Shown in pieces: positions 31,894-37,284 of a stretch of DNA of 64,000 bases (the first letter of the stretch is position 1; every line of letters begins with the position of its first letter). Below the pieces are notes generated by a model, which searched no databases, was not told the DNA's origin, and saw only the letters and a program-made list of their open reading frames with translations. Source of the stretch: an uncultured Bacteroidota bacterium (GTDB taxonomy: Bacteria; Bacteroidota; Bacteroidia; Chitinophagales; Chitinophagaceae); contig CAIYTT010000028.1 of assembly GCA_903929195.1 (NCBI GenBank), forward strand, positions 1-64,000, written 5' to 3'. Both the position numbers and the translations under genes were made by a program.

Positions 31894-32841
31894 TTATCTC
31901 TCTAATTCAACAGCCTTTGGAAATAATATATTATTTTCTAAGTGTATATGCAAATGGAGGTCATTTTCAAATTCTTCCAGCTTTTTATAGAGTAAATAAT
32001 AACTATTACAAGCATCTGCCGGTAATGTATAATCATTAGATAATGCTTTTATTTCGGCACCTAAATTGCCAACAATTTCATGGTCGTTTTCCATAACCGA
32101 TATAGGTTGCAATATAGAACCAAAACCGTTAGATGCATTCATGCCTTCCATTTTATTTACTTCTAATTGCTTAATATAGGGGAATAATATTTTTTCTTCT
32201 TTAATTAAATGTGTTTTAATTTCGCTGAATAATAATTCTGCTTTTGCTTTAATTTGTAACAATTCAGGATGTTGTTTGCCATGGTGTTCTGCAACTTTTA
32301 TACATAATTCTTCAATAGCAGGTATGTTATTTTTTACATAAGAATGGTGTACATTTATAATATAGTCTATTAAAAAAGTAAGATTCCAAGAATTATAATC
32401 GTGTTGGGGTATTAAGTTATTAATTTTACCTATATCCTCCAATTCAGCTTTTACCTGCAATACGTCTAAACCTTTTTCTTTACAAGAATCTTCTAAAGTT
32501 TTCTTACCCCCACAACAAAAATCTAAACCATATTTTTTAAATACTTCTGCTTTTCGTAAATCTTTTGTTGCTATTTCGCCTAAAGTTTCTACTTTTTGTG
32601 AAGATAAGTATTTTCTTATCTCCACTCTCCATAGTTCCGGTCCATTTTCTAAATATGCCCAAGAAAACGTATTTCCACGCTCACCTAACAATTGGTAATA
32701 GAGCGGTTTAGGGTCGTGGTCGTTATGTATAATTACAGCCACACCCTCATCTAAATAATCAAAAGCCTTAAAAATGGATGGGTGCTTCAGTCTTGGCTCT
32801 ATTTTAGTAACATCAATAATAATATCCTGTTCCATATTCAT
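31894..32841 (-). CDS. ric: Iron-sulfur cluster repair di-iron protein with DUF2249 domain
   Basis: A 315-residue RIC/ScdA/YtfE family protein that repairs Fe-S clusters damaged by nitric oxide or oxidants. An extra N-terminal DUF2249-like domain (about 6-75, VTKIEPRLKHPSIFKAFDYL...) comes first. ScdA_N follows (about 84-135) with the paired cysteines FCCGG (Cys109-Cys110). The C-terminal hemerythrin-like domain has the His/Glu di-iron ligands in VHHSYV, EHHGKQHPEL, LIKEEKILFPY, NDHEIVG and HLENNILFPKA. The alternative ATG at 32835 is equally possible. Its placement beside an Rrf2 regulator and norCB supports an NO-stress role. Confidence 0.92.
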   Translation of the reverse strand: MNMEQDIIIDVTKIEPRLKHPSIFKAFDYLDEGVAVIIHNDHDPKPLYYQLLGERGNTFSWAYLENGPELWRVEIRKYLSSQKVETLGEIATKDLRKAEVFKKYGLDFCCGGKKTLEDSCKEKGLDVLQVKAELEDIGKINNLIPQHDYNSWNLTFLIDYIINVHHSYVKNNIPAIEELCIKVAEHHGKQHPELLQIKAKAELLFSEIKTHLIKEEKILFPYIKQLEVNKMEGMNASNGFGSILQPISVMENDHEIVGNLGAEIKALSNDYTLPADACNSYYLLYKKLEEFENDLHLHIHLENNILFPKAVELER

Positions 32842-32968: not shown

Positions 32969-33424
32969 TCATTCGTCGTCATCTATTAAATGGTCGTGCC
33001 TGATAAACTTTCTTCCCTTTTTTAATATTTTTGCCATTTCATCAATTGTGGTTCGTTCCATCATTTTTTCCAAATTAGACCGTATAATCTTATATTTGTC
33101 ATGCAAAGGACAAGGTTCATCATCAGAACAATATTTTAAACCAAGCCCGCATCCCGAAAATAATTTATCTCCGTCAATAGCTCTTACTACTTCTATAAGT
33201 TGTCTGTTTTTCTGTGGCTTGGTCATAAAAAAGCCGCCATTAACACCTTTTTGCGAACTCAAAATGTCGGTATGAACAAGTGTTTGTAAAATTTTTGCAG
33301 TAAAATGAGACGGAGCCTCTATATTCTCACTAATTTCTGCAATACCTATTTTATAATCTTGGCTCCCTGTAGCACAAATATAAATTGATGCTCTGATGCC
33401 GTACTCGCAAGTTTTTGAAAACAT
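32969..33424 (-). CDS. Rrf2-family [2Fe-2S] transcriptional regulator (NsrR/IscR-like)
   Basis: A 151-residue winged-helix regulator. The start MFSKTCEYGIRASIYI is typical of Rrf2 proteins. Three cysteines, Cys92, Cys99 and Cys105 (GCGLGLKYCSDDEPC), with His108 close behind, match the cluster-binding loop of IscR/NsrR. The Fe-S cluster is the NO or redox sensor in characterised members. It lies between norCB and ric on the same strand, so it probably regulates both. Its own upstream region has the palindrome ATACTTAGTAT at 33447-33457, a candidate operator. NsrR is favoured by context over IscR, but sequence alone does not settle it. Confidence 0.9.
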   Translation of the reverse strand: MFSKTCEYGIRASIYICATGSQDYKIGIAEISENIEAPSHFTAKILQTLVHTDILSSQKGVNGGFFMTKPQKNRQLIEVVRAIDGDKLFSGCGLGLKYCSDDEPCPLHDKYKIIRSNLEKMMERTTIDEMAKILKKGRKFIRHDHLIDDDE

Positions 33425-33533: not shown

Positions 33534-34874
33534 CTATATTTCAATTTGCGTTTGAAATTCTTTTAACTTTATTGCATTATATAAATATACAATTACAATA
33601 GACGCAATACTTATTACTAAAAAAACACCTGCATAAGAAAATACTTTCATTACCCTTAACACAGGTTCCATTATCTCTTGAAAATTTAATTTGCAACTTT
33701 CTACAGTCCTATATCCTTTTATTAAGCCGGCGACAATTAAAGCTATCCAAAAACAGCTTAAAGAAAATTGACTTAACCAGTATGAAAAACTCAAAAATCT
33801 ACTTACCCTACCCTTTAAATCGTCAATTTTAAGTATATATGTAAAGCTTGCTAATAAAATCATTGTGTTAATGCCAATTGTAGCACCCATTGCATGGGCA
33901 ACTGTTATATGTGTGCCGTGTGTATATAAATTTATTGCCGGCACAGATATAGAAAGCGTTAATAATAAGTTCATAAAAACCCAAAATTCAGCTGCAATTA
34001 TAAATCTGTAAGTAAGTAGATGTCTTAATTTTGCACGCTGTTCTAATGTCTTTTTAAACGATTGAATCATTCTAATTAAAAACACCCATTCCGTCATACT
34101 AATGATATATGAAGTGTCTCTTATCCATGCTGCCGTAGGAACATTATAGATATGATGCCCCCAATTAAACATTAAATTAGTTAAGCCAAGCATGTAAAAG
34201 AAAAAGGCTGTTTTTCCTTTTGCAATATTTTCATCGCCACTAATTTTAACCATAAGATAAAGCGATGTTCCATATATCATCTGGTTCCAAGCACCTACCA
34301 TTGCACCGTTCGATTTCCATTGCACTGTTATCTCTTTTAGGTAGGAGGCTCTAAACCAAGATATTTGCCATAAATTTTGTTCAACAAATGTTATTAAAAA
34401 AAATAGTATCCCTGTTGCCCACATCCAAATATACATTGGCTTTTTACCGGTACTTTTAAATAATGGCACATAGAATGAAAACATTAATAATATCCAACTT
34501 ATTAATAAAGGCAAACATAATATTGGTGGAAATTCCCAATATTCTCTACCCCCAAACATTTTTAAACCATAACAAATAAAAATAGCTGCAATAGTAGTAA
34601 GCCATATAACCATAAAACCGGTTTCTAATAAAGCACTACTATTTTTTCCATTTGCAAATGTTTCCTTTTTATAAAATAAGATACTCGCTGTAGCCCCTGT
34701 TATAATCCAAAACAAAGCAGCTGAAACATGAAAAGGTCTTAATTGATAAAAAGGAAGAAATTTATTATATACTTCAGGAAATAAAAAAGCCCATGTAGCT
34801 AAAAGCCCAAAAATCAATGTGGTTAAAAGCAAAATCAAAGCACTAATTATATATATACGAATATTACTTTTCAT
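33534..34874 (-). CDS. Nitric oxide reductase catalytic subunit, divergent NorB
   Basis: A 446-residue haem-copper superfamily protein with about 12 helices. Recognisable ligands are His49 (low-spin haem, RPFHVSAALFW), His240-His241 (FeB, NWGHHIYNVP) and His327 (haem b3, TVAHAMG). Two usual ligands are different. At the helix-VI HxxxE/Y position the sequence reads WNQMIY, with Asn197 in place of the FeB His and Tyr201 in place of Glu. The second His of the canonical AHGH motif is Met329. It overlaps norC by one base (TAATG), so translation is coupled. NorB identity rests on fold and partner; the chemistry may differ from cNOR, so no gene symbol is given. Confidence 0.85.
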   Translation of the reverse strand: MKSNIRIYIISALILLLTTLIFGLLATWAFLFPEVYNKFLPFYQLRPFHVSAALFWIITGATASILFYKKETFANGKNSSALLETGFMVIWLTTIAAIFICYGLKMFGGREYWEFPPILCLPLLISWILLMFSFYVPLFKSTGKKPMYIWMWATGILFFLITFVEQNLWQISWFRASYLKEITVQWKSNGAMVGAWNQMIYGTSLYLMVKISGDENIAKGKTAFFFYMLGLTNLMFNWGHHIYNVPTAAWIRDTSYIISMTEWVFLIRMIQSFKKTLEQRAKLRHLLTYRFIIAAEFWVFMNLLLTLSISVPAINLYTHGTHITVAHAMGATIGINTMILLASFTYILKIDDLKGRVSRFLSFSYWLSQFSLSCFWIALIVAGLIKGYRTVESCKLNFQEIMEPVLRVMKVFSYAGVFLVISIASIVIVYLYNAIKLKEFQTQIEI

Positions 34875-35278
34875 TAATTATCAAGTTTGTAGTTTCCTGT
34901 CCAAGTAACTTTTTCTTTGCTAACTCTATTTTTACCACTTTTATCTACCCATTTCAAAAAAGAAACTATCTTAGCTATTTCTGAATCAGATAAATTGAAA
35001 TTGGGCATTTTAGCAGTACCATATTTAATAAAACTACTTATATATAAATCGTTCTTTGTGGTGTCCGATGCCAAATTTGTCAAATCGGGACCCATATAAC
35101 CACCCAAACCGTATATTTGATGGCAACTCTGGCAATTTTTATTCTGCCATATATTCCACCCTACTAATGCATTGCTACTAGGACTTATTTCAGTTTTTTG
35201 GGATTTGTCGCAATAATAATAAACCATGCAAGTATAAATTGCAAAGGCAATAAATAACCCAATCCACAATCGAATCAT
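34874..35278 (-). CDS. NorC-like membrane-anchored cytochrome c
   Basis: A 134-residue protein with one N-terminal membrane anchor (about 4-22) and a single periplasmic haem c domain. The haem motif is CQSCH (49-53), with GLGGYMGPDLTNLA after it and Met91 (AKMPNF) as the likely sixth ligand. This matches the small subunit of nitric oxide reductase, which passes electrons to NorB. Its stop overlaps the norB start by one base. A minus-strand TATTTTTG at 35342-35335 fits the -7 consensus, so this is the first gene of the pair. Confidence 0.87.
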   Translation of the reverse strand: MIRLWIGLFIAFAIYTCMVYYYCDKSQKTEISPSSNALVGWNIWQNKNCQSCHQIYGLGGYMGPDLTNLASDTTKNDLYISSFIKYGTAKMPNFNLSDSEIAKIVSFLKWVDKSGKNRVSKEKVTWTGNYKLDN

Positions 35279-35409: not shown

Positions 35410-35447
35410 TAAAAAAAGGGAGCAACATATTATCGTTGCTACCCTTT
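35410..35447 (-). terminator. Terminator of the 602-residue protein gene
   Basis: Stem AAAGGG-AGCAAC (35415-35426) with GTTGCT-A-CCCTTT (35435-35447), one bulge, 8-base loop. On the minus strand the stem runs into seven T. It lies 29 nt past the stop at 35476. Confidence 0.8.
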
Positions 35448-35475: not shown

Positions 35476-37284
35476 TTACGCAGTTTGTAAACAAAAATTA
35501 GACATTGCTAATATATTTGCTGCTTTATCTAATTCTGCTTTCATTATTGCTATATATTGGCTACTTTCTTTCTTAAAATAATTTACCAAATCATTATAAT
35601 ACTCAATGCCATCCATTAAATTATTTTTAAATACTTGTAGCTGTTTTATTTGTTTAGGGTTCAAACTTAAATCAGATTCAAGCCTTTTCTTAAAATGGTC
35701 TATATATAGGTTCAATTCATTAATAAACATATTAGGTCTATATAATGAATTTAAGAGGTTGATACGCCCATAGATATGATTAACCATTTCCGCCAGAGAA
35801 AAAGTACCTGAAAAATAAGCTAAATTAGGACCGGGACAAATTGTAACTGCATTTAAATTGTGCGATAAAGGCATATTGTCTTTAATTAATACAGCCGTAC
35901 CTAAACCTTCGCATAAGCAATCCTTTTCAGTAATAGCATTAAACTCTTTTTCATAAATTTCTTCAGGAAGATTTTTAGATTTAAGTTCATTAATTTTTAA
36001 ATTTTGATACTCTCTTGATGCGGTACATATAGGAGTATCAGTAAACTCTACATTGGTAGCAAGAAACTTTTTATAACACGGGCTACCAGGTCTGCCTTTG
36101 CTTATTCGTTCTTGTCTTTGTTTTTCTGCCGAACTCTGTCTGAAATTATTAAATGCTATGCCTAAAGGTGATGCATAGCTTATATAGTAGTCTTCTTTTT
36201 TAGCTGTTGCTAATTTACTTAGTGTAACACTATCAACATTTGTAGCCTCCGGCACTAATAAAAAAGGACTCCCCCATCCGGTACCGTCTAAAACAAAATG
36301 TTCTAATAAAAATTCATTTTCGTTTGATGTACCTATGCCCCCCTGAACGGTTATTTTAAGGTGGGGTTGTGAAATAAATGGTGATTTATTTTTTTCTTTA
36401 ATTCCAATATTACATAAGTCAAAAAGCTCTTTTGATAATTCAGCCCTTTTATTTTTAAACTCTTCTAAAATAGGTCCTAATAATAAGCCATCGGTAGGAA
36501 ATGCATGACCACCGCAATTTAATCCTGATTCAATTCTGAATTCTGAAATCCACAAGCCTTTTTTAGCAAATATTTTGCCTTGAACCATTGCAGAACGAAA
36601 ATCACTCACTTTTAAAATAATCTTCTTTTTAAGCCTATTGTTTTCATCCGGAAAAAAATCGTTAAACTGTTCTACATAATTATATAATCGTGGATTATAA
36701 CCTGCCGAAAAAATAATTGAAGAATCCAAATTACTATTTGCAAAACCACGAAAAGCTGATAATGCATCTGAAAATTCAACAGGTGGTAAATTGCCGTCTT
36801 TATCCGCTTTTAAACTATCAACCTTTGCCATTACGTTTACATCAATTGCACCGGGTCTTATTAAACTTTTTAATTTGTTCTGTAATTCCAGTTTTTCATT
36901 TCCTTCCTTCATTGCATTTATTTCCAAATACATCACCTTCAATGGAGATTCAATTGGTAGAAGTTCAAAATATTTATACAAATCATTGTCTTCATTAAAT
37001 GGCAAATTACGTATCTGCATTACCTGAAAATTAACTATATCATTCACTAAGTTCAAGTAGGCTGTTATTCTTTTGGCTCTGTAATCAGTCTCGGTATTAT
37101 TAATAGGTTCATAAATATAACCAAATTGCGAACTATGGTATGCTCTCATCTTCTCTATTAATTCATCGTCCATTATTGATATTACGGACGATATACCATA
37201 ACATGCAACTTTTATTGGCGTATCAATTGAATATCCAATTCCTAAAACCGGTATATGAAAACTATGTAATTTAGGCTTATCCAT
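35476..37284 (-). CDS. Large Cys-rich protein of unknown function
   Basis: A 602-residue soluble-looking protein with no signal peptide or membrane helices. I could not name its family. The N-terminus (HIPVLGIGYSIDTPIKVACYG) and a central GGIGT...DGTGWGSPFLLVPEA stretch recall FMN-dependent TIM-barrel enzymes such as nitronate monooxygenase or glutamate synthase; this is resemblance only. Striking conserved-looking patches are ESGLNCGGHAFPTDG (Cys257), GSPCYKKF (Cys403), TPICTASRE (Cys420), KDCLCEGLG (Cys456, Cys458) and TICPGPNLAYFSG (Cys483). The last five cysteines could bind an Fe-S cluster. The final 110 residues are helical. It lies upstream of norCB on the same strand, separated by its own terminator. 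Confidence 0.8.
   Translation of the reverse strand: MDKPKLHSFHIPVLGIGYSIDTPIKVACYGISSVISIMDDELIEKMRAYHSSQFGYIYEPINNTETDYRAKRITAYLNLVNDIVNFQVMQIRNLPFNEDNDLYKYFELLPIESPLKVMYLEINAMKEGNEKLELQNKLKSLIRPGAIDVNVMAKVDSLKADKDGNLPPVEFSDALSAFRGFANSNLDSSIIFSAGYNPRLYNYVEQFNDFFPDENNRLKKKIILKVSDFRSAMVQGKIFAKKGLWISEFRIESGLNCGGHAFPTDGLLLGPILEEFKNKRAELSKELFDLCNIGIKEKNKSPFISQPHLKITVQGGIGTSNENEFLLEHFVLDGTGWGSPFLLVPEATNVDSVTLSKLATAKKEDYYISYASPLGIAFNNFRQSSAEKQRQERISKGRPGSPCYKKFLATNVEFTDTPICTASREYQNLKINELKSKNLPEEIYEKEFNAITEKDCLCEGLGTAVLIKDNMPLSHNLNAVTICPGPNLAYFSGTFSLAEMVNHIYGRINLLNSLYRPNMFINELNLYIDHFKKRLESDLSLNPKQIKQLQVFKNNLMDGIEYYNDLVNYFKKESSQYIAIMKAELDKAANILAMSNFCLQTA

Follow-up and report, generated by a model that had tools for sequence, protein, structure and literature searches.

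NorC*B*, the NorC-like and NorB-like pair encoded within the window (the whole stretch of 64,000 nucleotides analyzed, part of a 4.19 Mb genome), is on balance predicted to be a membrane-bound, cytochrome c-fed, NO-consuming heme enzyme, most likely converting NO to N2O. The labels NorB* and NorC* cover the pair in the window and its relatives, a large, conserved family in which the heme-copper histidine sextet is broken at two places at once. These bacterial membrane proteins, which resemble NO reductase, have apparently been overlooked and may be an unrecognized NO-consuming enzyme with unusual chemistry. The NO-consuming reading draws on the invariant residues, the CcoN/cNOR fold, the position of the clade, the NorC-like partner, the gene neighbors, the enrichment of nosZ and nirK, two informative genomes (G589 and G437) and the distribution of NorD.

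The norC* gene (34874..35278, minus strand) is an open reading frame for a 134-amino-acid NorC-like membrane-anchored cytochrome c with a CQSCH motif and matches to Cytochrome_CBB3/Cytochrom_C, and norB* (33534..34874, minus strand) is one for a 446-amino-acid NorB/CcoN-like subunit I (PF00115) with altered distal-site and low-spin heme ligands. The stop codon of norC* overlaps the start codon of norB* in the window sequence TAATG. A NorC-like cytochrome c is found directly upstream of norB* in 73 of the 77 loci scored for neighbors, and somewhere in the locus in all 77. NorC* presents the CxxCH motif, a G-x-G-G-Y-x-G-P-D-L stretch and a conserved Met91, features partly common to NorC, and Met91 is likely the sixth heme ligand. 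A terminator-like hairpin followed by a T run, read directly from the sequence (35411..35445, minus strand), lies between norC* and an upstream gene for a 602-amino-acid protein (35476-37284, minus strand), suggesting that norC* opens its own transcript. The 602-amino-acid protein has no Pfam or NCBIfam matches, and relatives of its gene are found at 25 of the 77 loci.

NorB* has the 12-helix subunit I fold of the heme-copper superfamily, as indicated by the COX1 profile PF00115 (88 bits, cut-off 34.8), by an AlphaFold2 model with a mean pLDDT of 91 and by Foldseek, which finds CcoN and cNOR about equally close to the model (TM 0.83-0.86). A sequence search of solved structures gave cNOR 4xyd as its sole match (E 1e-8). 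There is no NCBIfam model specific to NorB*; the best match of the window protein and of 71 relatives is ccoN. This best match, together with a structural similarity to CcoN that equals that to cNOR, would suit a divergent cbb3-type O2 reductase. Such an identity is extremely improbable, given that the match scores 33 bits where the cut-off is 583, that the helix-VI CuB histidine is lacking and Leu234 stands where cbb3 enzymes have the helix-VII tyrosine, that the partner is NorC-like rather than CcoO/CcoP, that the genomes already contain CcoN, and that the neighborhood is linked to NO.

In an IQ-TREE phylogeny of 59 rows, NorB* forms its own clade (100/100) and is placed as sister to a clade of cNOR, qNOR and Nod (100/100; support for the union 96/93); the cbb3-type rows fall outside this grouping. 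The tree contains long branches, which make this exact sister placement probable but not certain. In this tree, which includes no named eNOR, sNOR, gNOR, nNOR or bNOR, NorB* falls on the C-family side, apart from five B-family-like rows. Its position outside cNOR, qNOR and Nod argues that NorB* is not a decayed cNOR. The distinct lineage proposed in the sequence-only reading is thus borne out, as a fully supported and strongly conserved clade outside cNOR.

The six-histidine signature that is taken as the hallmark of the heme-copper superfamily (PMC3413370) is incomplete in NorB*, with four of the six present (His49, His240, His241 and His327), the helix-VI histidine absent and Met329 in place of the sixth. 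All residues named in the sequence-only reading (His49, Asn197 in WNQMIY, Tyr201, His240-His241, His327 and Met329) occur in the window protein. His49, the low-spin heme ligand on helix II, is encoded at 34728..34730, and His240-His241, the two helix-VII histidines kept from the distal (FeB) site, which align with His258-His259 of cNOR, at 34152..34157 (both minus strand). His327-x-Met329 (33888..33896, minus strand) aligns with the HGH/HAH motif of cNOR and qNOR. The alignment is unambiguous at this AHAM site, where His327 is the proximal histidine of heme b3 and Met329 replaces the second histidine of the low-spin heme, as had been claimed. Since Met329 is invariant, a low-spin heme b with His/Met ligation is likely.

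The helix-VI signature, Q185-W-K187-x-x-G190-x-x-V-G194-x-W-N197-x-x-x-Y201 (34272..34322, minus strand), contains neither the FeB histidine nor Glu211. Alignment by hhalign of 71 NorB* with 14 Bacteroidota cNOR sequences (probability 99.6%) pairs WKSNGAMVGAWNQ with WVVHLWVEGVWEL, placing Asn189 at His207, Val193 at Glu211 and Asn197 at Glu215. A joint MAFFT alignment of NorB*, cNOR, qNOR, Nod, cbb3 and B/A-family rows has Gly190 in the His207 column and a gap in the Glu211 column. The His207 position is taken by the variable Asn189 in the former and by the invariant Gly190 in the latter; both alignments leave helix VI without a histidine and NorB* without equivalents of His207 and Glu211. The earlier claim that these two ligands are missing therefore stands, but its register does not: pairing Asn197 with His207 and Tyr201 with Glu211 needs a deletion of about eight residues between helices VI and VII and was rejected, and alignments that preserve the spacing place the histidine at Asn189 or Gly190. 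A histidine elsewhere on helix VI filling the FeB place is excluded, as helix VI has no conserved histidine in 102 sequences. With a helical turn of 100 degrees per residue, Lys187, Gly190, Gly194, Asn197 and Tyr201 share one face of the helix, probably the one on which cNOR has its His and Glu ligands.

The altered ligand set is, by alignment, a family-wide trait. Among 102 distinct NorB* sequences, with pairwise identity down to 33%, the residues His49, Glu165, Gln185, Trp186, Lys187, Gly190, Gly194, Asn197, Asn233, Trp238, His240, His241, Glu262, His327 and Met329 are found in every one. Lys187 and Gly190 are thus invariant with variable positions 188 and 189 between them, the latter being N in 70 sequences, Y in 20, L in 5, G in 3, M in 3 and A in 1. 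The presence of Met329, His49, His240, His241, His327, Lys187, Gly190 and Asn197 in 102 of 102 sequences excludes chance and sequencing error. A pseudogene or simple degeneration was likewise rejected, given the invariant residues and the intact frames, with one exception. This sole broken copy seen (L092:9376-10692, in genome G475) carries an in-frame TAG, perhaps as a result of pseudogenization or of a sequencing error. The earlier judgment that loss of function is unlikely agrees with these invariant residues and the NorC-like partner, which point to a conserved lineage rather than a decaying copy.

Of 249 genomes belonging to the family-level group of the window genome, 45 contain NorB*, as do 8 of 396 sampled across the phylum. 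A pattern-based scan of 84,980 species genomes retrieved approximately 550 relatives, almost all of them accompanied by a NorC-like protein; the best 80 of these 550 are nearly all labeled Bacteroidota and include the isolates Chitinophaga silvisoli, Pararcticibacter amylolyticus and Pedobacter sp. BAL39. One norB* (L163) lies on a contig labeled as a Rhodospirillales MAG, which may reflect transfer beyond Bacteroidota or misbinning. In a plasmid collection, NorB* gives only matches at the level of ordinary cNOR (approximately 25% identity). A literature search, of which a PNAS 2024 survey (e2316422121) was not part, found no published Bacteroidota NOR of the NorB* type, and an earlier mention is possible.

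The ligand residues are those shown by the alignments, and the heme content and electron path are presumed from them. Electrons would pass from the heme c of NorC* to the low-spin heme b (His49/Met329) and on to heme b3 on His327. The distal site would retain only His240-His241, opposed by a helix-VI face with the invariant Lys187, Gly190, Gly194 and Asn197. A metal might be held there by the two histidines and other ligands, such as Glu262, Asn197 or water; alternatively, the metal may be gone, with Lys187 giving charge and a proton. Loss of FeB ligands is expected to abolish standard NOR chemistry, which weighs against NO reduction by NorC*B*, and FeB coordination is believed to be lost in the Glu211Ala variant (PMC3431322).

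In cNOR, FeB is inserted by NorQ and NorD, whereas qNOR needs no NorQD (PMC9976466). NorD was found in 6 of 49 NorB*-containing genomes, exactly those with a canonical cNorB, and neither NorQ nor NorD occurs in any of the 77 loci scored. NorB* therefore appears independent of NorD and would mature without NorQD; this agrees with an altered distal site and is supportive but not decisive, since qNOR also does without NorQD. The dispensable NorD and the invariant Lys187 and Gly190, set between variable positions and on the FeB face by helix periodicity, lend themselves to a bolder scheme, namely a widespread metal-free NO reductase of the heme-copper fold. In it, Lys187 above Gly190 would replace the FeB site, taking over charge and proton delivery, and a His/Met low-spin heme b would supply the electrons. 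This scheme is a tentative possibility, as Lys187 may simply pair with a heme propionate, and the invariance of His240-His241 suggests that something is still bound.

The genomic setting is consistent with a role in NO metabolism. In the window, norB* is accompanied by a gene for an Rrf2-family regulator (32969..33424, minus strand; PF02082) with conserved-type cysteines, likely responsive to NO or Fe-S, and by one for a RIC/YtfE-type di-iron repair protein (31894..32841, minus strand) with a DUF2249-ScdA_N-hemerythrin architecture (TIGR03652 above cut-off). Across loci, the neighbors include RIC (27 of 77), Rrf2 (36 of 77), HHE and CRP-type proteins and nosZ-L-D-F-Y, so that the NorC partner and NO-stress neighbors described earlier extend to the family. 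Two conserved multi-pass membrane proteins without Pfam matches also recur beside NorB*, RIC and Rrf2 (a 417-amino-acid ORF in L087 and a 420-amino-acid ORF in L072; also L066-L072, L088 and L089), one of them at 26 of the 77 loci.

NosZ occurs in 37 of 45 genomes with NorB* and in 97 of 204 without it (Fisher p 2.4e-5), and NirK above cut-off in 12 of 45 and 18 of 204 (p 0.002), p values that are indicative only because the genomes are related. Most NorB*-containing genomes thus have no NirK, which counts against the preferred reading. NirS gave only weak hits in NorB* genomes, resembling propeller repeats, and was rejected. A cNOR, qNOR or Nod is also present in 13 of the 45 genomes, and these coexisting NORs leave room for NorB* to do something else. 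About eight more of the 45 contain B-family-like heme-copper proteins of uncertain role; such proteins, of 555 to 579 amino acids and without the HxH motif, were seen in L182, L184, L191, L199 and L200, and the joint alignment shows GHFK for L182 and L191, with Lys for the second low-spin heme histidine. In G589 and G437, which have both NirK and NosZ, NorB* is the only non-oxidase protein of the heme-copper superfamily and so the only candidate NOR of that superfamily. The window genome has no nosZ, no nirK, no convincing NirS and no other NOR-like heme-copper protein, and its NorC*B* fits NO detoxification with RIC and Rrf2. Reduction of NO to N2O by NorC*B* would thus serve detoxification or, elsewhere, form a step between NirK and NosZ.

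The same setting bears on whether turnover has been lost, leaving NorC*B* as an NO-binding sensor, an NO sink or an electron-transfer module that, for example, feeds NosZ or tunes a neighboring NOR. The whole family lacks the FeB His and Glu, and NorC*B* adjoins nos genes and an active-looking canonical norCBQD (in L077-L079, norCB with norQD is separated from the pair by a few genes and has the same orientation). This alternative is nevertheless unlikely: the electron-entry path, the heme b3 histidine, both helix-VII histidines and Glu262 are invariant, about half of the NorB* genomes have no other NOR-like heme-copper protein, and a cytochrome c partner of its own would be superfluous for a sensor.

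Some Bacteroidota loci carry nod-like (qNOR-like) genes beside norC*B* (L064:11075-13378, L080:1861-4314, L081:2813-5155 and L095:6445-8790), in which SHN replaces HH and the helix-VIII Glu is a Gln. In these loci, and also in L133, L134, L153 and L155, norC*B* diverges from the nod-like gene. The changes from HH to HN and from Glu to Gln are those described for NO dismutase (PMC3413370). By analogy with these neighbors, and because one of the three FeB histidines is missing in both Nod and NorB*, a dismutase-like conversion of NO to N2 and O2 might be envisaged. It is very unlikely, since a different histidine is lost (HN and Gln in Nod, HH and Glu262 in NorB*; PMC3413370), NorB* is supplied by a cytochrome c, whereas the Nod reaction is believed to use no electrons from outside, and NorB* falls outside the qNOR/Nod clade.

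If NorB* does reduce NO, it could be part of the missing step in genomes with nir and nosZ but no nor. In one survey most of the genomes that carry nosZ without nir belonged to Bacteroidota, and nir and nosZ without nor were found in 9% of Bacteroidota with denitrification genes (PMC12569097); nor was lacking in one third of nirK- and nosZ-containing Bacteroidetes (PMC4250227).

Among known systems, cNOR (NorCB; 3O0R, 4XYD) shares with NorC*B* the two subunits, the gene order norC-norB, the fold (TM 0.83-0.85), His49, HH, His327, Glu262, the GREYxE stretch, and NO-stress and denitrification neighbors. NorB* differs in having only approximately 20 to 25% identity, in lying outside the cNOR and qNOR clade, in retaining His240-His241 alone of the FeB set of three His and Glu211, in having Met329 where cNOR has a bis-His low-spin heme b, in the invariant Lys187/Gly190 and in lacking a link to NorD. 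qNOR is on the same side of the superfamily and does not need NorQD (PMC9976466), but is one fused polypeptide with the complete FeB ligand set, whereas NorB* belongs to a two-subunit, cytochrome c-type enzyme outside the qNOR clade. Nod, often a genomic neighbor, has also lost one FeB histidine, but is a qNOR-like single protein that has HN in place of HH, Gln at the helix-VIII Glu position (PMC3413370) and no NorC partner, where NorB* keeps HH, Glu262 and a separate NorC-like partner. CcoN of cbb3 oxidases resembles NorB* in fold (TM 0.84-0.86), in the QW motif that opens helix VI and in a one-residue gap at Glu211, but NorB* lacks the helix-VI CuB histidine, has Leu234 at the helix-VII tyrosine position (MAFFT) and is paired with a NorC-like protein, without CcoO/CcoP. 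The eNOR, sNOR, gNOR, nNOR and bNOR enzymes are, as NorB* is predicted to be, alternative NORs of the heme-copper superfamily, and all are described as related to B-family oxidases (PMC11388526). That description sets them apart from NorB*, whose lineage on the C-family side does not fit the NOR classes beyond cNOR and qNOR described there.
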